The translations under genes were made by a program, and so were the position numbers. A stretch of 64,000 nt of DNA from positions 62,001 through 126,000 of the forward strand of contig NZ_FTMY01000014.1 in NCBI RefSeq assembly GCF_900156165.1, written 5' to 3'. Under the pieces are notes generated by a model. The model made no database searches. It saw nothing but the letters and a program-made list of their open reading frames with translations, and was not told the origin of the DNA. The stretch comes from Pseudacidovorax sp. RU35E (GTDB lineage Bacteria > Pseudomonadota > Gammaproteobacteria > Burkholderiales > Burkholderiaceae_C). Positions 48,857 through 58,564 of this stretch are shown here, piece after piece; position 1 is the first letter of the stretch; the number at the start of each line of letters is the position of its first letter.

Positions 48857-50337
48857 GCTTCGTCCTCGACCACGACCGGGCGGGCGGCTACTGGGGCGCC
48901 GTCTATGTGTTCACGGCCATCAAGGGCCTGCAGGTCATCATCGACGGCCCGGTGGGCTGCGAGAACCTGCCGGTCACGTCGGTGCTGCACTACACCGACG
49001 CGCTGCCGCCGCACGAGCTGCCCATCGTCGTCACCGGCCTGGCCGAGGAGCAGCTGGGCCGCGAAGGCACCGAGGCCTCGATGAAGCGCGCCCATGCGGT
49101 GCTCGACCCCGATCTGCCGTCGGTGGTGGTCACCGGCTCCATCGCCGAGATGATCGGCGGTGGCGTGACGCCCGAGGGCACGACCATCGCGCGCTTCCTG
49201 CCGCGCACCATCGACGAGGACCAGTGGCAGTGTGCCAACCGCGCCATCTACTGGCTGTGGGCCGAGCACGGCCTGCGCAAGGTGCCGGCACGCACGCCGC
49301 TGGACCAGCGTCCCGCCGGCGAGAAGCCTCGGGTCAACCTGATCGGGCCCAGCTACGGCGTATTCAACAGCGCCAGCGACGTGCACGAGATCCGGCGACT
49401 GGTCGAAGGCATCGGCGCCGAGGTGAACATGGTGTTCCCGCTCGGCAGCCATGTGGCCGACGTGCAGAAGCTGGTGGACGCCGACGTCAACATCTGCCTC
49501 TACCGCGAGTTCGGCCGCCTGCTGTGCGAGGCGCTGGAGCGGCCCTACCTGCAGGCGCCCATCGGCCTGCACAGCACCACGGCCTTCCTGCGCGAGCTGG
49601 GCCGGCTGCTGGGGCTGGACCCGGAACCCTTCATCGAGCGCGAGAAGCACACCACCATCAAGCCGATCTGGGACCTGTGGCGCTCGGTGACGCAGGACTT
49701 CTTCGCCACCGCCTCCTTCGGCATCGTCGCCAGCGAGACCTACAGCCGGGGCGTGCGCCACTTCCTGGAGGACGAGCTGGGCCTGCCCTGCCAGTTCGCC
49801 GTGGCGCGCAAGCCCGGCAGCAAGACCGACAACGCGGCCGTGCGCGAGCTGGTGCGCACCAAGGCGCCGCTGGTGCTGCTGGGCAGCATCAACGAGCGCA
49901 TCTACCTGGCCGAATGCGCGGCGCAGGGGCCGATGCGGCCGAGCTTCATCGCCGCGAGCTTTCCCGGTGCGCTGATCCGCCGTGCCACGGGCACGCCCTT
50001 CATGGGCTATGCGGGTGCCACCTGGCTGGTGCAGGAGGTGTGCAACGCGCTGTTCGATGCGCTCTTCCACATCCTGCCGCTGGCCACCGACATGGACCGC
50101 ACCGACGCGACCCCCGCGCGGGCCGTGGCCGAGCTGGCCTGGACGCCCCCGGCGCGCGAACTGCTCGACGAACTGCTCGAGGCGCAACCCGTGCTGGTGC
50201 GCATCTCGGCCGCCCGGCGCCTGCGCGACGCGGCCGAGCAGCGCGCCCGCCAGGCCGGCAGCGCGCTCGTCCAACCCGAACACCTGGAGGGGCAGACGCG
50301 GCAGATCGTTGCGGCTGCGCTCGGAGCGCTCGCATGA
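48853..50337 (+). CDS. bchZ: BchZ, chlorophyllide reductase subunit Z
   Basis: A 494-residue NifK-like subunit. [21 protein letters not shown] and [20 protein letters not shown] (cluster Cys) are the recognisable N-terminal blocks; a PCP-reductase-like C-terminal segment with [20 protein letters not shown] resembles the tail of BchB. Downstream, 106 bp separate it from pufB. No pufQ is found in that gap. Confidence 0.96.
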
Positions 50338-50443: not shown

Positions 50444-50593
50444 ATGGCTGAAGAAAGGAAAGGCTCGTTGTCCGGGCTGACCGAAGGTGAGGCCAGGGAG
50501 TTCCACGGCATCTTCATGAGCAGCTTCATCGGCTTCACGGTCGTCGCCGTGATTGCCCATGTGCTCGTGTGGATGTGGCGTCCCTGGCTGTGA
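50444..50593 (+). CDS. pufB: PufB, LH1 antenna beta polypeptide
   Basis: A 49-residue antenna peptide. [17 protein letters not shown] precedes the membrane helix; H39 in [14 protein letters not shown] is the bacteriochlorophyll ligand, and H21 is the conserved second histidine. The end WMWRPWL is typical of LH1 beta. AAGGAG stands 8 bp before ATG 50444. It heads the puf genes and is followed after 38 bp by a second, PufB-like gene. Confidence 0.97.
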
Positions 50594-50631
50594 GCTGAAA
50601 CGACGAACGAACGCACCAGGAGTGATGTGCC

Positions 50632-50853
50632 ATGAATGACTACATGACTGCGTCGGCAGGTCCGCAGGCCCTGCACGGCAAGAGCGATGGAGCACTGTTT
50701 CTGATCAGCTTCGTGTTCGTGCTGGCGGTGGCGCTGGTGGGGCAGATCCTGTTCCTGAAATGGCGCAACTGGTTTCCCGGTGCGGAGAGCGAAACCTCGA
50801 TGTTCAAGAGCGTGCGGGCAGGGGTCTACACCTTCATGTCGCACCTCAACTAG
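50632..50853 (+). CDS. PufB-like small membrane protein lacking the bacteriochlorophyll histidine
   Basis: A 73-residue protein encoded between pufB and pufA. It has one predicted helix (about residues 21-42). Aligned without gaps on WRNWF/WRPWL, it matches PufB at about 9 of 26 helix positions (FxxSF, VA, L, WR, W), but PufB's ligand H39 corresponds to Q38 here and H21 to Gly20. After the helix comes an extension of 25 residues ([20 protein letters not shown] and onward) absent from PufB. AGGAG lies 9 bp upstream of ATG 50632, and pufA starts 11 bp after the stop. I know no described family for it. It may be an accessory LH1 component comparable in role, not in sequence, to PufX or protein W. 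Confidence 0.82.
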
Positions 50854-51171: not shown

Positions 51172-51996
51172 ATGGCCATGCTGAACTTTGAGCGCAAGTA
51201 CCGCGTCCGCGGTGGCACCCTGCTCGGAGGCGACCTGTTCGACTTCTGGGTCGGGCCCTTCTACGTCGGCTTCTTCGGCGTGACGACGATCTTCTTCTCG
51301 CTGGTCGGCACGCTGCTGATCGTGTGGGGCGCCTCGCAGGGGCCGACCTGGAACCTCTGGCAGATCAACATCGCGCCGCCCGACCTGAGCTATGGCCTGA
51401 GCCTGGCGCCGCTGCTGCAGGGTGGGCTCTGGCAGATCATCACCTTCTGTGCGGTGGGCGCCTTCGTGAGCTGGGCGCTGCGCGAGGTCGAGATCTGCCG
51501 CAAGCTGGGCATGGGCCTGCACGTGCCCGTGGCCTTCGGCTTCGCCATCCTGGCCTATGTGACGCTGGTGGTCATCCGGCCGCTGCTGATGGGCGCCTGG
51601 GGCCATGGCTTCCCGTACGGGATCATGAGTCACCTGGACTGGGTGTCGAACACCGGCTACCAGTACCTGCACTTCCACTACAACCCGGCGCACATGCTGG
51701 CGGTGAGCTTCTTCTTCGCCACCACCTTCGCGCTGTCGCTGCACGGGGCCCTGGTGCTGTCGGCCACCAACCCCGCGCCGGGCGAGACGGTCAAGACCGC
51801 CGAGCACGAGAACACCTTCTTCCGCGATGCCATCGGCTATTCGATCGGCACGCTGGGCATCCACCGCCTGGGCCTGTTCCTGGCGCTGTCGGCCGGCTTC
51901 TGGAGCGCCGTCTGCATCGTCGTCAGCGGCCCGTTCTGGACCCGCGGCTGGCCCGAGTGGTGGGGCTGGTGGCTGCGGCTGCCGGTGTGGAACTGA
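51172..51996 (+). CDS. pufL: PufL, reaction centre L subunit
   Basis: The 274-residue L subunit has five membrane helices and binds bacteriochlorophylls, bacteriopheophytin and [23 protein letters not shown] opens the protein (split), [22 protein letters not shown] holds special-pair and iron ligands, and [14 protein letters not shown] the second iron His. ATG 51172 has GGAGG about 9 bp upstream. The 109-bp gap to pufA contains the hairpin. Confidence 0.98.
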
Positions 51997-52017: not shown

Positions 52018-52992
52018 ATGGCTGAGTACCAGAACCTCTTCACCAGCGTGCAGGTGGTCGCACCGGCGTATCCCGGCGTGTCGCTCGGTTCCAAGGACCG
52101 CGAGCGCATCGGCATGCCCAGGCATGTGCACCTGTTCGGCCGGCTGGGCGATGCACAGCTGGGGCCCATCTACCTGGGCTACCTGGGCCTGTGGTCGCTG
52201 CTGTGCGGCTTCATCGCCATCGAGATCATCGGGCTGAACATGCTGGCCTCGGTGCACTGGAACCCGATCCAGTTCGTGCGCCAGCTGCCCTGGCTGGCGC
52301 TGGAGCCACCGGCCCCCGGCTACGGCCTGCACTGGCCGCCGCTCAACGAAGGCGGCTGGTGGCTGATGGCGGGCTTCTTCCTCACGCTGTCGATCCTGCT
52401 GTGGTGGGTGCGCATGTACCGCCGCGCCCGCGCACTGGGCATGGGCACGCACGTGGCCTGGGCCTTCGCGGCGGCCATCTGGCTGTACCTGGTGCTGGGC
52501 TTCATCCGCCCGCTGCTGATGGGCAGCTGGGGCGAGGCGGTGCCCTTCGGCATCTTTCCGCACCTGGACTGGACGGCGGCCTTCTCGCTGCGCTACGGCA
52601 ACCTGTTCTACAACCCCTTCCACATGCTGAGCATCGCCTTCCTGTACGGCAGCACGCTGCTGTTCGCGATGCATGGCGCGACCATCCTGGCCGTCAGCCG
52701 CTTCGGCGGCGAACGCGAGATCGAGCAGATCACCGACCGCGGCACCGCGAGCGAGCGAGCGGCCCTCTTCTGGCGCTGGACCATGGGCTTCAACGCCACC
52801 ATGGAGTCCATCCACCGCTGGGCCTGGTGGTTCGCGGTGCTGTGCCCGCTGACGGGTGGCATCGGCATCCTGCTCACCGGCACGGTGGTGGACAACTGGT
52901 TCCTGTGGGCGGTCAAGCACGGCGTGGCGCCCAGCTATCCGGCGGTGTTCCCGCCGGTGATGGACCCGGCGTCGATGGGAGGTGTGCGATGA
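52018..52992 (+). CDS. pufM: PufM, reaction centre M subunit
   Basis: The 324-residue M subunit pairs with PufL. Typical blocks are [33 protein letters not shown] (ligands of the special pair and iron, split) and [20 protein letters not shown]. The C-terminal segment after the last helix is of the longer form found in bacteria with a tetrahaem cytochrome. Its stop overlaps pufC in ATGA. Confidence 0.98.
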
Positions 52993-54095
52993 ACCGCGTG
53001 CTGCCCGCCACCGGCCTGGTCCTCGTCGCGGCGCTGCTGCTGGCCGGGTGCGAGAAGCCGCCGCCGCAAAGCGTGCAGCGCGGGCCCCGCGGCACGGCCA
53101 TGGTGCAGGTCTACAGCCCGGCGGCGCTGGCCGACGCGGCGGTGCACAACGCGGCGCCCGAGCCGCTGCCACCTGCCTCGCCCGACGGTCCGCGCGCCAG
53201 TCAGGTCTACCAGAACGTGCAGGTGCTGGGCAACCTGAGCGTGGCCGAGTTCGCGCGCACCATGACGGCCATGACCGCCTGGGTCGCGCCCGGGCAGAGC
53301 TGCGCGGCCTGCCACAACCCGGCCAACTTCGCGGACGACTCGATCTACACCAAGCTGGTGGCGCGCCGCATGCTGCTGATGACGCAGAAGATCAACACCG
53401 AGTGGAAGACGCACGTCGGCAACACGGGCGTCACCTGCTACACCTGCCACCGCGGCCAGAACGTGCCGTCGGAGGTCTGGTTCAAGCCGCTGCAAGACGA
53501 GCGGATGAACACCTTCGCGGGCAACCATGCGGGACAGAACGCGCCCGCCGATTCGGTGGGGCTGAGCGCGCTTCCTTCCGATCCGTTCACGCCCTTCCTG
53601 CTGGAGGATGTGGGCATCCGCGTCGGCGGCGCGACCGCGCTGCCCACGGGCAACCGGCAGTCGATCAAGCAGACGGAATGGACCTACGGCCTCATGATGC
53701 ACATGAGCAAGTCGCTGGGCGTCAACTGTACGCAGTGCCACAACACGCGCAGCCTGTCGAGCTGGGGCGGCGAGTCGTCGCCGCCACGGCTGACGGCCTG
53801 GCATGGCATCCGCATGACCCGGGCGTTGAACAACGAGTTCCTGGTGCCCCTGACGGCCAACTTCCCGGCCAACCGCCTGGGCCCGGGCGGCGACGTGGCC
53901 AAGGTCAACTGCGCCACCTGCCACCAGGGCGCGCACAAGCCGCTCTATGGCGCGCCGATGGCCAAGGAATACCCGGGGCTGCTCATCGCGGCACCGGGCA
54001 ACGCGCAAGGCAGCATGTCGGCGGCCGACCTGAAGGTGATCGCGCCGATGGCGACGATCTCGACCCAGGCGCCGACGCCAGCGCCCGCACGCTGA
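52989..54095 (+). CDS. pufC: PufC, tetrahaem cytochrome subunit of the reaction centre
   Basis: A 368-residue lipoprotein with signal and lipobox LLLAGC (Cys21 lipidated). Four haem motifs are present: CAACH (105-109), CYTCH (150-154), CTQCH (247-251) and CATCH (308-312); Met ligands are expected in the helices before them, as in RRMLLMTQ and TYGLMMHMS. It re-reduces the photo-oxidised special pair and receives electrons from HiPIP or a c-type cytochrome. It ends the puf operon. Confidence 0.97.
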
Positions 54096-54160: not shown

Positions 54161-54874
54161 TCAGGGCTGCCGCTTCGGCGCCGACTCGATCAGCCGCACC
54201 ATGGCCGTGTAGCCGCGTGCCTGGGCCAGCGCCAGCGGCGTGCGGCCCTGCCGGTCGGCCAGGCGCAGGTCGGCACCGGCATCGATCAGCGCGGCCAGCG
54301 TGCGCTGGTGGCGCGGGCCGCCGTCGCCCAGCACCACGGCTTCGATGGCGGCGGTCCAGTGCAGGTTGTTCACATGGTCCAGCGGCGCACCGGCCCGGAT
54401 CAGCCGCTGCACCACCGTGTCGTGGCCCAGGTGGGCGGCAGCGATCAGCGCCGTGCCGTCGTAGCGGCTGGTGACCAGGCGCGCGGAGGCGCCCAGGTCC
54501 AGCAGCAGCGACAGCGTCGGCAGATCGTCGGCCACGGCCGCGATGGTCACGGCGTCGTAGCGGTCGGCGTCCATGGCGCCCAGGTCGGCACCGGCCGTCG
54601 CCAGGGCGCGGATGGCTTCGGGCTGGCGCGCGAAGGTGGCCACATGCAAGGGCGTGCGACCGTGGGCGTCGCGGCCGTTGACCGGTGCGCCCTGGACCAG
54701 CGCCTGACGCAGCGCGGGCAGGTCGCCGCGCTGCGCGGCGCGGAAGAGGCCGGTGTAGGCCTCGGCCTCCGCGGCCGTGGGCGCCACCTGCGCCGAGGCG
54801 GGTGCTGCGCCCAGCGCAAGTGCTGCGGCCACGGCCAATAGCGGACCGGCAAGGCGGCTGTGGCGCATCGTCAT
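54161..54874 (-). CDS. Periplasmic ankyrin-repeat protein
   Basis: A 237-residue protein with an N-terminal signal peptide ending near ALGAAPASAQ and about five ankyrin repeats. Clear repeats are GRTPLHVATFARQPEAIRAL, YDGTALIAAAHLGHDTVVQRL and GRTPLALAQARGYTAMVRL. The role is probably protein binding in the periplasm. It starts 1 bp after the GlcG-like gene's stop, so the two are coupled. Convergent with pufC across 65 bp. ATG 54868 is an alternative start. Confidence 0.82.
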   Translation of the reverse strand: MTMRHSRLAGPLLAVAAALALGAAPASAQVAPTAAEAEAYTGLFRAAQRGDLPALRQALVQGAPVNGRDAHGRTPLHVATFARQPEAIRALATAGADLGAMDADRYDAVTIAAVADDLPTLSLLLDLGASARLVTSRYDGTALIAAAHLGHDTVVQRLIRAGAPLDHVNNLHWTAAIEAVVLGDGGPRHQRTLAALIDAGADLRLADRQGRTPLALAQARGYTAMVRLIESAPKRQP

Positions 54875-54875
54875 C

Positions 54876-55439
54876 TCAGGCGCCCAGCTGGGCCTTGACC
54901 GATTCCAGGCCCGCATTGGCGCACTGGTCGTCCAGGTGGCCGCCTGGCGCGCCGCCCACGCCCACGGCGCCGATCACCTCGTTGCCGGCCTTGATCGGCA
55001 CGCCACCGCCCAGCAGCAGGAAGCCGGGGATGTTCACCAGGTTGGCGGCGCCGGGGTTCTTCTGGGCGTTCTCCATCATCGCGAGCGTGGGCGCCTTGCC
55101 CGAGGCCGAGGTGAAGGCCTTGCGCTCGGCAGCGGCCACCGTGTGCGGGCCGGCGTTGTCGGCACGTTGCACGGCGCGCACGGTGCCGGCGCGGTCGACC
55201 ACGGTGGCCGTGACGGCGTAGCCGTTGGCGGCGCAGGCGGCCACGGTGGCAGCGGCGATCTGGTTGGCCAGCGGCAGGCTCAGGGCGCGCTCGGTGCGCA
55301 GCCCGGCTGCGGCGGCGGCGGCCGGCGTCGCTGCCGGCTGGGCCGGGGCTGCGGCCTGCTGGGCCAGGGTCAGGCTGGCGACCATGGCCAGGGCGGCGCC
55401 GGTGCAGGCGCGGGTCATCAGGGTGGGCGAAATGCGCAT
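54876..55439 (-). CDS. GlcG/HbpS-family haem-binding protein, exported
   Basis: The 187-residue precursor has a signal peptide (ALAMVASLTLAQQA) and a GlcG/HbpS domain: LPLANQIAAATVAACAANG, VTATVVDRAGTVRAVQR, ERKAFTSAS and IGAVGVGGAPGGHLDDQCA. Proteins of this family bind haem or cobalamin-like ligands, or support neighbouring oxidoreductases; function is not fixed. GGAGA lies 6 bp before ATG 55439. An operator-like repeat lies 90 bp upstream. Confidence 0.82.
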   Translation of the reverse strand: MRISPTLMTRACTGAALAMVASLTLAQQAAAPAQPAATPAAAAAAGLRTERALSLPLANQIAAATVAACAANGYAVTATVVDRAGTVRAVQRADNAGPHTVAAAERKAFTSASGKAPTLAMMENAQKNPGAANLVNIPGFLLLGGGVPIKAGNEVIGAVGVGGAPGGHLDDQCANAGLESVKAQLGA

Positions 55440-55529
55440 GGAAATCTCCAGTGTTGTGAGGCGGTGAAGTCCGCTCGTCGGCGGTGATGCCACTGTAGAA
55501 ATCCGTCCGCGCCGCGCCCATTCGTGCGG

Positions 55530-55556
55530 CTACGCGCGCCACTGCGTAGAACTACG
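55530..55556. promoter_or_regulatory. CTACG/CGTAG repeat upstream of the GlcG-like gene
   Basis: A perfect 12-bp inverted repeat CGTAGAACTACG (55545-55556) plus another CTACG at 55530-55534, two helical turns away. It lies between the response-regulator gene and the haem-binding protein gene and is a plausible target of that regulator. This is inference from position only. Confidence 0.4.
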
Positions 55557-55584
55557 GAGCGGCGATGGCGCGGTGACGTCGTGG

Positions 55585-56226
55585 CTAGGGCGCCGGTGCC
55601 TCGGCCAGCACCGCATAGCGCCGGATCAGCTGCGCCAGCGACTCGCAGTCCAGCTTGGCGAACAGGTTGGCGCGGTGCGTCTCGACCGTGCGCGGCGACA
55701 GGTCGAGCCGGCGCGCGATCTCTTTGTTGGTCAGGCCTTCGATGATGAAGGCCAGCACCTCGCGCTCGCGCGGCGACAGCTGGGCGAAGCGCTCGCGCGC
55801 CGCATGGTCGCCCAGCAGCCGCTCGCGCGAGCGCACATGCTGGCGCACCGCGGCCTGCAGCGCGTCGATGAGCTGCTGGTCGTCCACCGGCTTTTCGAGG
55901 AACTCGGCCGCGCCCGACTTGAAGGCGCGCCGGCACAGCTCCACGGTGCCATGGCCGGTGAGCATCAGCACCGGCTGGTCCACGCCCTCGGCGATCAGGC
56001 GGTCCAGCACCGCCAGGCCGCTGATGCCGGGCATGCGCACGTCGAGCACGATCGCGCCGATCTCGCGCCGGTCGAACTGCGCCAGGAAGGCGAGCGGATC
56101 GGCCCAGGCCTGCACCCGCAGGCCCACCGTGCCGATGAGCAGGGCCAGGGCGTCGCGCACCGCATCGTCGTCGTCGATGAGGTGGATCAGCGGGGATTGA
56201 GGCGAGGCGTTCATGGCAGGCGGCAT
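55585..56226 (-). CDS. FixJ/NarL-family response regulator
   Basis: A 213-residue regulator with a receiver domain (acidic IDDDD at 17-21, phospho-acceptor D62 in IVLDVRMPG, T90 region LMLTGHG, K112 in LEKP) and a LuxR-type helix-turn-helix (LSPREREVLAFIIEGLTNKEI, split, about residues 150-170, then LSPRTVETHRANLFAKL). It is paired with the histidine kinase encoded 9 bp upstream. ATG 56214 (MNASPQ) is an equal start candidate. Confidence 0.9.
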   Translation of the reverse strand: MPPAMNASPQSPLIHLIDDDDAVRDALALLIGTVGLRVQAWADPLAFLAQFDRREIGAIVLDVRMPGISGLAVLDRLIAEGVDQPVLMLTGHGTVELCRRAFKSGAAEFLEKPVDDQQLIDALQAAVRQHVRSRERLLGDHAARERFAQLSPREREVLAFIIEGLTNKEIARRLDLSPRTVETHRANLFAKLDCESLAQLIRRYAVLAEAPAP

Positions 56227-56235
56227 GCAGAGGGT

Positions 56236-57717
56236 TCAAGCCTCGGCCAGCGGCAGGGCGAGCGTGAAACGCGCCCCGCCTTCGGGCGGGTTGTCGGCCG
56301 CCAGGCTGCCGCCCTGGCCGGTGGCCAGCGTCTCGCTGAGGCTCAGGCCTAGCCCGAGTCCGCCCGGGCGCGTACTGACGAAGGGCTGGAAGATGCGCGC
56401 CAGCAGCTCGGGCGCGATGCCCGGACCGCTGTCGTGGATCTGCAGCAGGCCCTGGCCAGACTGGCGCAGCACGGCGATGCGGATGCGCCGCGGCGTATCG
56501 GCCGGCCGGGCCTCCAGCGCCTGCAGCGCATTGAGCAGCAGGTTGTGGACGATCTGCTCCACCGCCACGGGATCGGCCTGAACGCGCACGGGCTCCGCGC
56601 CGGCCGCGGTCTCCACCGCCACCTGGCGGCGGGCGCACTCGGGCTCCAGCAGATGCAGGGCATCGCGCACCACATCCTGCAGCGCGACGACGGTGCGCCG
56701 CTCGCCGGCCTGCGCGTCCGGCCGCTCGATGGCGCGGCGCAGCCGCGCGACCACGGCCGCGGCGCGGCGGGCCTGCTCTGCGGCCTGCGCCATGGCGCCG
56801 CGGGCGGTGGTCAGCTCGGGCGGGTCTTCGTCCAGCAGGCGTCGCGCGGCCTGCGTGTTGGCCAGCATGGCCGTGAGCGGCTGGTTGAGTTCGTGCGCCA
56901 TGCCCGCGGCCAGCTCGCCCAGCGTGTTGAGCCGGCCGACCTGGCCCAGGCGCAGCAGCTCCTCGGCACGTCGCCGGCCGGTGCGCTGGCGCTGCCAGGC
57001 CTGCAGAACGCCCAGCGCCACGGCCACGACCGCCGCCCACAGCGTCATCGCGGGCCAGGGCAGTTCGGCCCAGCCCACGCGCCGCATCGACACCACCTCG
57101 AAGGGCTGGCTGGCCGAGGCCAGCGTCTTGCGGAAGCCGAAGTGCCAGCCGCCGGCCGCGGTCGCATCGCGGCCGGGCTGCAGCACGAAGGCCTGGCCGT
57201 CCAGCGCCAGCACCAGGCGCGAGGCGGCCGTGCGCGGCTCGTTGGGCCATTCCTGCCAGGGCACGGCCGCAGCCAGGTCGATGTCGAGTGCGTAGCTGGC
57301 CGGCTCGGCCGCCATGAGCAGCTGATAACGGCCGGCGGCCAGATCGATGCGGCTGAGCACGGCGGCCTTGCGGCTGCGTGAGCGGGCTTCGGCGGCAGCC
57401 AGTTCCGCATCGGCCCATGCGGTGCCGGGTGCGCGGCGTTGCACGCGCAGGATGGCCGGGTAGACGGCGCTCACCCGCTGTTCGGGCCGGTCGGCGGCGG
57501 CGGGCGCCTGGGCGCCACCCAGCAGCGCCAGCGTGGCCAGCACCGCGTCGTACTGCACCACCTGCTGGCTCATCAGCCGATGGGCGATGCGGCCCTCGGT
57601 GTCGAAGTCGGCCTGCAGGCGGTCGAGTTCGACGCGCGCCAGCCACACGCCACCCGCCAGCACGGCCACGAGCCAAGCCAGCAGCCAGGGCAGCAGGGAG
57701 CGCAGGGAACGGGGCAT
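56236..57717 (-). CDS. Membrane sensor histidine kinase
   Basis: A 493-residue kinase with two membrane helices (about 8-28 and 221-241) around a 190-residue periplasmic domain that starts with a long helix, as in CHASE-like or DctB-like sensors. The cytoplasmic part has HisKA GMAHELNQPLTAML (H275), the N-box NLLLNALQAL and the G-boxes HDSGPGI and GLGLGLSLSETL. The gene partner is the FixJ-like regulator. The signal is unknown; proximity to a haem-binding protein suggests an extracytoplasmic ligand or redox cue, as inference only. Confidence 0.88.
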   Translation of the reverse strand: MPRSLRSLLPWLLAWLVAVLAGGVWLARVELDRLQADFDTEGRIAHRLMSQQVVQYDAVLATLALLGGAQAPAAADRPEQRVSAVYPAILRVQRRAPGTAWADAELAAAEARSRSRKAAVLSRIDLAAGRYQLLMAAEPASYALDIDLAAAVPWQEWPNEPRTAASRLVLALDGQAFVLQPGRDATAAGGWHFGFRKTLASASQPFEVVSMRRVGWAELPWPAMTLWAAVVAVALGVLQAWQRQRTGRRRAEELLRLGQVGRLNTLGELAAGMAHELNQPLTAMLANTQAARRLLDEDPPELTTARGAMAQAAEQARRAAAVVARLRRAIERPDAQAGERRTVVALQDVVRDALHLLEPECARRQVAVETAAGAEPVRVQADPVAVEQIVHNLLLNALQALEARPADTPRRIRIAVLRQSGQGLLQIHDSGPGIAPELLARIFQPFVSTRPGGLGLGLSLSETLATGQGGSLAADNPPEGGARFTLALPLAEA

Positions 57718-57817
57718 GCGGGCATTGTGCCGGCCAGCACGAACACGACCTCTGCCACGCGACCGCGGTGATATCGTTTCCGGCCCGTCTCCGTGGCCTT
57801 CACCCCTCACGTCCGCC

Positions 57818-58564
57818 ATGCCTTCCAAAGCCTCGTCCCCTTCCACCACGCCGGCGTCGCGCAAGCGCCAGGTCCGCACGGCAGTCGCCGCCGCGGCTGC
57901 GCCTGCCGTGGATGGCGCCATGGACGAGGAGGTCGATGCCGACGGGGGCGGCGATGCGGGGGGTCGGCTGACTCAGGCCGAGCGCCGCGCGCTGGCCGAG
58001 CGGCGCATCCTCGACGCGGCGCTGGAACTGGTCGCGCGCCGCGGCTCGGTGCGCATGACGCTGGCCGAAGTGGGCGAGGCCGCCGGCTACAGCCGGGGCC
58101 TGCCGGCCCATCGCTTCGGCAGCAAGACCGGGCTGCTGCAAAGGGTGGTGCTCAACATCGGCGCGCGCTTCGAGGCACGGCGCCTGGCGCTGCCGCAGCA
58201 CCGCCCGGGGCTGGATGCGGTGCGCAGCCTGGTCTCCACCTACTTCGTCCGCGACGACACACGCTGGATCGAGACGCGCGCCCTGCTCGTGATGATGACC
58301 GAGGGCTTCATGGAGGACTCGGAACTCAACCCCTACATCGGCGAATACATCCGCAGCAGCATCTCGCGGCTGGAGCAGCACATCCGCGACGGCATCGCGC
58401 TGGGCGAGATCCGCGCCGACATCGATCCGACCACCGCCGCCACGCTGCTGCTGGGCGCGCTGCGCGGCGTGCTGCACCAGCGGCTGGTGCTGGGCGACCT
58501 GAGCCTGGACAAGGTGCGGGACCTCGCCTTGCAGATGGTCGACAGGACCCTGGCGCCGCATTGA
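57818..58564 (+). CDS. TetR-family transcriptional regulator
   Basis: The 248-residue protein has an unusually long N-terminal tail of about 55 residues, rich in Ala/Ser/Gly, before the TetR helix-turn-helix: ILDAALELVARRGSVRMTLAEVGEAAGYSRGLPAHRFGSKTGLL (in parts). The C-terminal ligand domain contains FVRDDTRWIETRALLVMMTEGF. It converges with the fatty-acyl genes to its right and probably controls them and the Bug gene. The ATG at 57818 is the first in frame after the kinase start; a later start cannot be excluded. Confidence 0.83.
   Translation: MPSKASSPSTTPASRKRQVRTAVAAAAAPAVDGAMDEEVDADGGGDAGGRLTQAERRALAERRILDAALELVARRGSVRMTLAEVGEAAGYSRGLPAHRFGSKTGLLQRVVLNIGARFEARRLALPQHRPGLDAVRSLVSTYFVRDDTRWIETRALLVMMTEGFMEDSELNPYIGEYIRSSISRLEQHIRDGIALGEIRADIDPTTAATLLLGALRGVLHQRLVLGDLSLDKVRDLALQMVDRTLAPH

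Follow-up and report, generated by a model that had tools for sequence, protein, structure and literature searches.

A putative histidine-less paralogue of the LH1 beta chain conserved between pufB and pufA in Burkholderiales

The window, a stretch of 64,000 nucleotides from Pseudacidovorax sp. RU35E (contig NZ_FTMY01000014.1, positions 62,001 to 126,000), carries the genes bchXYZ-pufB-ORF74-pufA-pufL-pufM-pufC in this order, as established by reading and by family scans (of the bch genes, bchZ alone, at 48862-50337, was scanned; Table 1). ORF74 opens with an ATG at 50632 and closes with a stop codon at 50851-50853 after 73 codons. It has its own AGGAG and lies 38 nt behind pufB and 11 nt ahead of pufA, a description already given in the sequence-only reading of this DNA and confirmed when the coordinates were re-read. 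The AGGAG of pufA overlaps the stop codon of ORF74, and folding found no RNA structure in the gap between pufB and ORF74. One pufB and one pufA of the window genome pass the LHC cut-off, and nothing else does. The stem-loop between pufA and pufL probably delimits the pufB-ORF74-pufA segment of the mRNA from pufLMC and would separate antenna from reaction-centre (RC) mRNA levels; the same interval, folded without shuffles in 8 relatives, gave -48 to -62 kcal/mol in seven of them. Beyond pufC, the minus strand (54161-57921) encodes an ankyrin-repeat protein, an HbpS-like haem-related protein, a LuxR-type response regulator and a histidine kinase.

Table 1. Positions in the window of the puf genes and associated elements
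Feature	Position	Strand	Basis
pufB, short LH1 beta, 49 aa, ligand His39	50444..50593	+	Pfam LHC, E 7.9e-13
Shine-Dalgarno AGGAG (50618-50622) and spacer of ORF74	50618..50631	+	sequence
ORF74 homologue, 73 aa, putative His-less LH1-beta paralogue	50632..50853	+	profile comparison, alignments, tallies
Predicted membrane helix of ORF74, residues 20-47, Gln38 at ligand position, WRxW end	50689..50772	+	alignment, tallies, AlphaFold
C-terminal tail of ORF74, residues 49-73, begins PG	50776..50850	+	homologous to long PufB tails
pufA, LH1 alpha, 65 aa	50865..51062	+	Pfam LHC, E 4.7e-17
pufA-pufL intergenic stem-loop	51063..51171	+	fold -59.9 kcal/mol, z -3.64, as stable in 0/200 shuffles
pufL	51172..51996	+	Pfam Photo_RC, E 1.2e-97
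pufM	52018..52992	+	Pfam Photo_RC, E 1.7e-110
pufC, RC cytochrome, 4-nt overlap with pufM (52989-52992)	52989..54095	+	Pfam CytoC_RC, E 6.6e-136

The gene had been called undescribed; by its place and its like length it is taken to be ORF74 (RD2015_RS05155) of Roseateles depolymerans, reported in PMC10037100. The LH1 absorbance band of that species lies at 873 nm (PMC12654162). The ORF74 of R. depolymerans DSM 11813 (L009) has 74 codons and is 58% identical to the window protein. According to the sections of PMC10037100 covered here, it lies between pufB (RS05150) and pufA (RS05160), is co-transcribed with pufBA on the major 1-kb puf transcript, and is, together with pufA and pufB, one of the three most reduced loci in a sigma-factor mutant (Table 2 of that paper). 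Those sections name it as an ORF and record its transcription, and give neither homology nor function. The same table lists ORF77 (RS05175) between pufM and pufC, whereas the two genes overlap by 4 nt in the window. No paper on the homology or function of ORF74 was found in searches of an open-access library with few subscription papers, and a mention in older work on Rubrivivax or Roseateles is possible. Within the literature searched, what appears new is not the gene, which is known by number, but its description as an LH1 beta without the ligand His and the observation that ORF74 and tailed PufB exclude each other.

Profile comparisons indicate that ORF74 is a paralogue of LH1 beta, homologous over its full length and closest to the tailed (long) beta chains. 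HHalign gave 97-98% against short PufB, 99.8% over 74-75 columns against the long PufB of Burkholderiales and 99% against long beta chains of other genomes, the E-values of HHalign being those of single comparisons without a database. The corresponding ORF74 profile scores were 61, 144 and 103, whereas the best of 60 shuffles scored 20, 50 and 24, respectively, so that no true score was reached by any shuffle (0/60); the kinship with LH1 beta seen in the sequence-only reading is thereby upheld. That reading is refined in that the closest kin of ORF74 are tailed beta chains and not the adjoining short PufB. PufA, which served as the negative control, was ruled out as a relative, its score of 16.6 being equalled by 17 of 60 shuffles. 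Among PDB sequences, the ORF74 profile found LH1 beta chains, the best being 8z81_B (1.4e-14, profile positions 8-63, running into the tail), and the window protein alone reached 8.5e-6. No close homologue of ORF74 was present among the PDB chains by profile or sequence search, the significant matches being ordinary antenna chains. Two long beta-like chains of one complex, 8z81_B and 8z81_D (75 and 74 aa), are among the best relatives. The window protein has no Pfam LHC match up to E 10, and LHC matches below the cut-off occur in 4 of the 22 ORF74 members of set A1 (best E 0.089). As to other families, nothing exceeded the cut-off in Pfam or NCBIfam, and PHROGs yielded nothing. The AlphaFold model (mean pLDDT 66.2, pTM 0.38) places a helix at residues 10-47, with mean pLDDT of 93 for residues 21-30 and 88 for residues 31-40; from residue 51 the pLDDT of the tail falls to 50-58, and a helix predicted at 57-72 is not to be relied on. 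A fold search with this model gave no match and is uninformative, because the PufB model used as a positive control had no match either.

A locus scan over contigs from one genome per species recovered 22 loci, all from Burkholderiales or from metagenome-assembled genomes with betaproteobacterial names. The order pufB-ORF74-pufA-pufL-pufM is complete in 21 of them, the contig of the remaining one (L024) starting inside ORF74, and identity to the window protein ranges from 40 to 97% across 21 aligned relatives. A sample of 399 Burkholderiales genomes contained 48 with RC genes, of which 46 could be assessed, since the contigs of G301 and G147 break off before the ORF74 site; ORF74 follows pufB in 38 of the 48, a count that includes G052, whose contig ends within ORF74 so that adjacency to pufA is not seen. 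Homologues in other puf operons, which the sequence-only reading had proposed to look for, thus occupy the same place in 21/22 loci and 38/48 RC genomes. All 58 loci measured have pufB-ORF74-pufA on one strand, with a gap of 10-22 nt between ORF74 and pufA (11-12 nt in 44); a Shine-Dalgarno-like motif precedes ORF74 in 52 of these loci and pufA in all 58. ORF74 is evidently under purifying selection, with dN/dS of 0.10-0.41 in all ten pairs computed (the pair of the window and L003 has 4 differences only). Because of these identities, the constant order and the dN/dS values, ORF74 is more than a chance reading frame, and on this evidence it is a real, conserved gene that goes beyond an isolated duplicate. 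A phylum-wide sample of 398 genomes yielded a match to ORF74 in at least 21 (at most 14 candidates were scored per genome): four were same-family genomes with ORF74, and the other 17 matches comprised 15 puf loci and two loci that are not puf loci. The best-matched chain in those 15 puf loci was in every case a PufB with His.

The helix of the window protein aligns with that of PufB without gaps, placing Gln38 opposite His39 and Gly20 opposite His21 and leaving a 25-residue C-terminal extension, as the sequence-only reading had it. The absence of the ligand His, also part of that reading, extends to all 59 members: the position holds Gln in 51, Thr in 4, Ser in 2, Gly in 1 and Leu in 1, and all 61 PufB chains compared (58 from ORF74 loci and three from Rhodocyclus-like genomes) have His there. 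At the N-terminal EFH His column, where the window protein has Gly20, His occurs in 3/59, and Trp47, nine residues beyond Gln38, is kept in 58/59. Mean pairwise identity, computed over 41 ORF74 representatives under 85% identity, is 83% for residues 44-52 (WRxW-PG), 56% for the rest of the tail, 41% for the helix and 19% for the N-terminus, so that constraint is tightest at the helix end, as in LH1 beta, and in the tail. In tail-only comparisons, HHalign gave 98% against the long PufB tails of Burkholderiales and 94% against those of other genomes, each with 0/40 shuffles as good. The tail is homologous to the long-PufB tails, so that it represents an old feature and not a new extension. The 15 tailed beta chains compared (5 from Burkholderiales, 10 from elsewhere) all carry GY near the tail start (L157 and L159 with GY, L164 without it, and L165 and L166 without a tail were left out of this count), and at the Tyr position none of the 59 ORF74 proteins has Tyr (one has Phe). 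In Rhodopseudomonas palustris, the parts of PMC7806223 covered here describe a beta chain resolved to Tyr52 with 13 C-terminal residues missing, and, on the basis of mass spectrometry, put the missing regions down to heterogeneous cleavage. This one species links the GY site to cleavage, and ORF74 may retain its tail whereas such beta chains lose theirs. Positive charges are slightly commoner C-terminal than N-terminal of the ORF74 helix (mean 3.1 versus 1.9), and the LH1-beta-like topology of ORF74 is accordingly not certain.

The 46 assessable Burkholderiales genomes fall into three states, which are mutually exclusive in the DNA seen: (i) ORF74 with short PufB (38 genomes); (ii) long PufB without ORF74 (5 genomes: L095, L096, L101, L107 and L105), the single PufB of 76-78 aa combining the ligand His with an ORF74-like tail; and (iii) a small His-less ORF upstream of pufB (3 genomes: L086, L094 and L097), which ends LAMALMD and accompanies a PufB that stops soon after WRPW or WKPW. 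ORF74 and long PufB occur together in 0/46. The label Rhodocyclus-like for the third group is a guess from gene content; its members also have an LHC alpha-like ORF beyond pufM on the other strand, with a beta-like ORF beside it in L097. The tail is present once in 43 of the 46 genomes, and because three genomes have neither ORF74 nor long PufB it is not demonstrably needed in every operon. In a PufLM tree, four of the five long-PufB genomes lie near the outgroup, and the fifth (G180) is nested, weakly supported, among the genomes with ORF74; the tree, in which several deep nodes have support of 0.11-0.36, does not order duplication, loss or fusion in time.

The upstream ORFs of the three Burkholderiales genomes are related to ORF74 over the helix alone (HHalign 93-96%, 32 columns). 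Outside Burkholderiales, a His-less ORF lies upstream of, and beside, a His-bearing beta chain in 9 of the 15 puf loci, the other six being without one. These one-helix ORFs between bchZ and pufB (L152-L154, L158-L161, L163 and L164), several of which end SVFGEAKAMAVSAIPFAFMG or similar, were chosen by eye before testing. Those of L154, L163 and L164 had no Pfam or NCBIfam match over the cut-off, and the L163 ORF matched NCBIfam pufB (6e-4) and Pfam PufQ (0.14), both below it. A profile was built from the non-Burkholderiales ORFs and the three Rhodocyclus-like ones, which it finds by construction. HHalign gave 97-98% for the upstream ORFs against long PufB (score 62, shuffle maximum 18.5, 0/60) and 95-97% against ORF74 (score 57, shuffle maximum 30, 0/60). 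In tail-only comparisons, they matched the long PufB of Burkholderiales at 94% and ORF74 only weakly, at 12.6%, though 0/40 shuffles scored as high; the long tails of other genomes gave no match, with 5/40 shuffles as good. Searched across Burkholderiales loci, the profile matched 50/59 ORF74 proteins, 5/5 long PufB, 13 PufB and no other ORF. It detected no upstream ORF in the ORF74 loci, of which four of 58 (L103, L106, L108 and L119) have too little upstream DNA.

A beta-like helix encoded next to alpha, lacking the ligand His and bearing a conserved tail, fits a putative factor in LH1 assembly or ring architecture. The leading interpretation, offered tentatively and with nearly even prospects, is that ORF74 may take part, as a partner resembling a beta chain, in the biogenesis and architecture of LH1, being produced together with PufA and providing in trans the kind of tail found in cis on other beta chains. 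ORF74 would be synthesised alongside PufA, would pair in a beta-like manner either with PufA or with the ring as it grows, and would offer its conserved C-terminal tail to some further component. One job would thus be split between a short, pigment-binding PufB and a His-less ORF74 that provides the tail in trans. Since ORF74 is grouped with pufBA before the strong stem-loop and is close to pufA, its amounts would be nearer to those of the LH1 chains than to those of the RC chains. It is quite possible, if slightly less probable, that ORF74 is instead a resident accessory subunit, occupying one or several beta positions or a place between beta chains of the finished LH1 ring, where a gap or altered packing would let quinones pass, as with protein-W, PufX and gamma chains. 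The homology to LH1 beta, which includes the WRxW helix end, is in keeping with such a subunit, and there are precedents for accessory chains within the ring or next to it, namely protein-W and PufX at a gap and gamma-like chains (described in the parts of PMC7806223 and PMC9640540, respectively, that were covered). However, one copy per RC would not need a place upstream of a strong stem-loop, and no PDB chain is closely homologous, which is a weak point since a betaproteobacterial RC-LH1 structure may not exist. What chiefly tips the balance, by a small margin, towards biogenesis over a ring subunit is that the corresponding tail can be removed from one canonical chain.

Two further readings concern the helix. 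ORF74 could be a pigment-binding beta variant that holds bacteriochlorophyll or a precursor through Gln38, for spectral tuning, quenching or pigment delivery. Gln can ligate the Mg of chlorophyll in other proteins, and the prevalence of Gln (51/59) and Trp47 (58/59) agrees with this, so that the loss of pigment binding assumed in the sequence-only reading is not demonstrated. Nevertheless, 8 of the 59 members have Thr, Ser, Gly or Leu at the position and the helix otherwise drifts fast, which leaves pigment binding through Gln38 very improbable. That ORF74 is a relic or a non-functional duplicate is hardly tenable and is refuted as far as sequence can refute it: the rapid divergence of the N-terminus and helix is what such a relic would show, but the dN/dS values, the near-invariant WRxW-PG, the conserved tail and the constant gene order all speak against it.

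PufQ offers a different comparison. ORF74 might be the betaproteobacterial counterpart of PufQ, a small membrane protein steering tetrapyrroles into bacteriochlorophyll or handing pigment to LH1, with the upstream His-less ORFs as the link and PufQ as a former LH1 beta. The ORFs in the upstream slot (9/15 non-Burkholderiales loci and the three Rhodocyclus-like genomes) match both ORF74 and long PufB, and that of L163 touches the pufB and PufQ families at once, albeit below cut-off. Whole-length scores against PufQ slightly exceed the shuffle maxima for ORF74 (25.4 versus 22.8), and those of the upstream ORFs are 23.4 versus 18.2. PufQ is also reported absent from some phototroph groups in the portions of PMC3176799 and PMC5725709 covered here. 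On the other hand, HHalign reached only 26-62% for ORF74 against PufQ and 4-29% for the upstream ORFs, and the tail-only comparisons were empty, with 39/40 shuffles as good for ORF74 and 10/40 for the upstream ORFs. The PufQ family (PF05398) has no match in the window genome at E 0.001 (13 of the 398 genomes in the sample searched match it), and it is not among the matches of the 22 ORF74 members (set A1) up to E 1. The C-terminus of LH1 beta is periplasmic. That of PufQ, by contrast, is predicted to be cytoplasmic in the part of PMC5725709 covered here. Identity of role with PufQ is thus judged distinctly improbable, and ORF74 is not filed as PufQ because the tail-only comparison is empty and PF05398 finds nothing in the window genome. 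A broader proposal, unlikely but less so, is that LH1 beta founded a His-less 'silent beta' family for photosystem biogenesis, which would comprise ORF74, the bchZ-pufB ORFs and possibly PufQ, and whose function would occur once per operon: upstream of pufB, between pufB and pufA, or fused as the PufB tail. Both this proposal and the PufQ comparison are weakened because the tails of the upstream ORFs match those of ORF74 weakly.

Should a role in LH1 biogenesis and architecture hold, a conserved photosystem gene present in 38 of the 46 assessable Burkholderiales RC genomes would have gone without a family or function despite co-transcription with the antenna genes where examined. The split between PufB and ORF74 here, set against their union in the single chain of relatives, would provide a natural test of the LH1-beta tail versus the ligand His. 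It could reveal how RC-LH1 rings other than those of the Rhodobacter type form or open, and it points to where small puf accessory proteins may have come from in evolution. If a 'silent beta' family existed, an antenna protein would have turned into a factor for its own assembly or for pigment flux, and betaproteobacteria would possess a PufQ-like protein that bears a different name and lies elsewhere.

Among known systems, PufB (Pfam LHC PF00556, NCBIfam NF040862) resembles ORF74 in full-length profile homology, a single helix, the pattern [H/Q]-x-L...WRxW and the shared operon; ORF74 differs in lacking the ligand His and the N-terminal EFH His, in falling below the LHC cut-off and in its conserved tail. 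Long LH1 beta chains (PDB 8z81_B, 9m8m_B, 7xxf_B of Rhodopila, and 6z5r/6z5s, which we take to be from Rps. palustris) align with the ORF74 helix and tail start but keep the His, and the tailed chains compared have the GY site. PufQ is like ORF74 in its length of about 72-75 aa, one predicted helix, membership of the puf operon and a conserved C-terminus, yet it has a different C-terminal motif and marginal profile similarity, and lies upstream of pufB (pufQBALMC, as given in the part of PMC3176799 covered), whereas ORF74 lies between pufB and pufA in 58/58 loci. In a Pfam scan up to E 10, no PufX model matched the window ORF74. Three helices are described for protein-W (PMC7806223, as far as covered) as opposed to one long predicted helix and a short, low-confidence C-terminal one in ORF74, and the gamma-like chain of Rhodopila has 22 aa and is encoded far from puf (PMC9640540, as far as covered). 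PufX, protein-W (PufW) and LH1 gamma are nonetheless all small helices that modify the LH1 ring, and ORF74 could work in a like manner.
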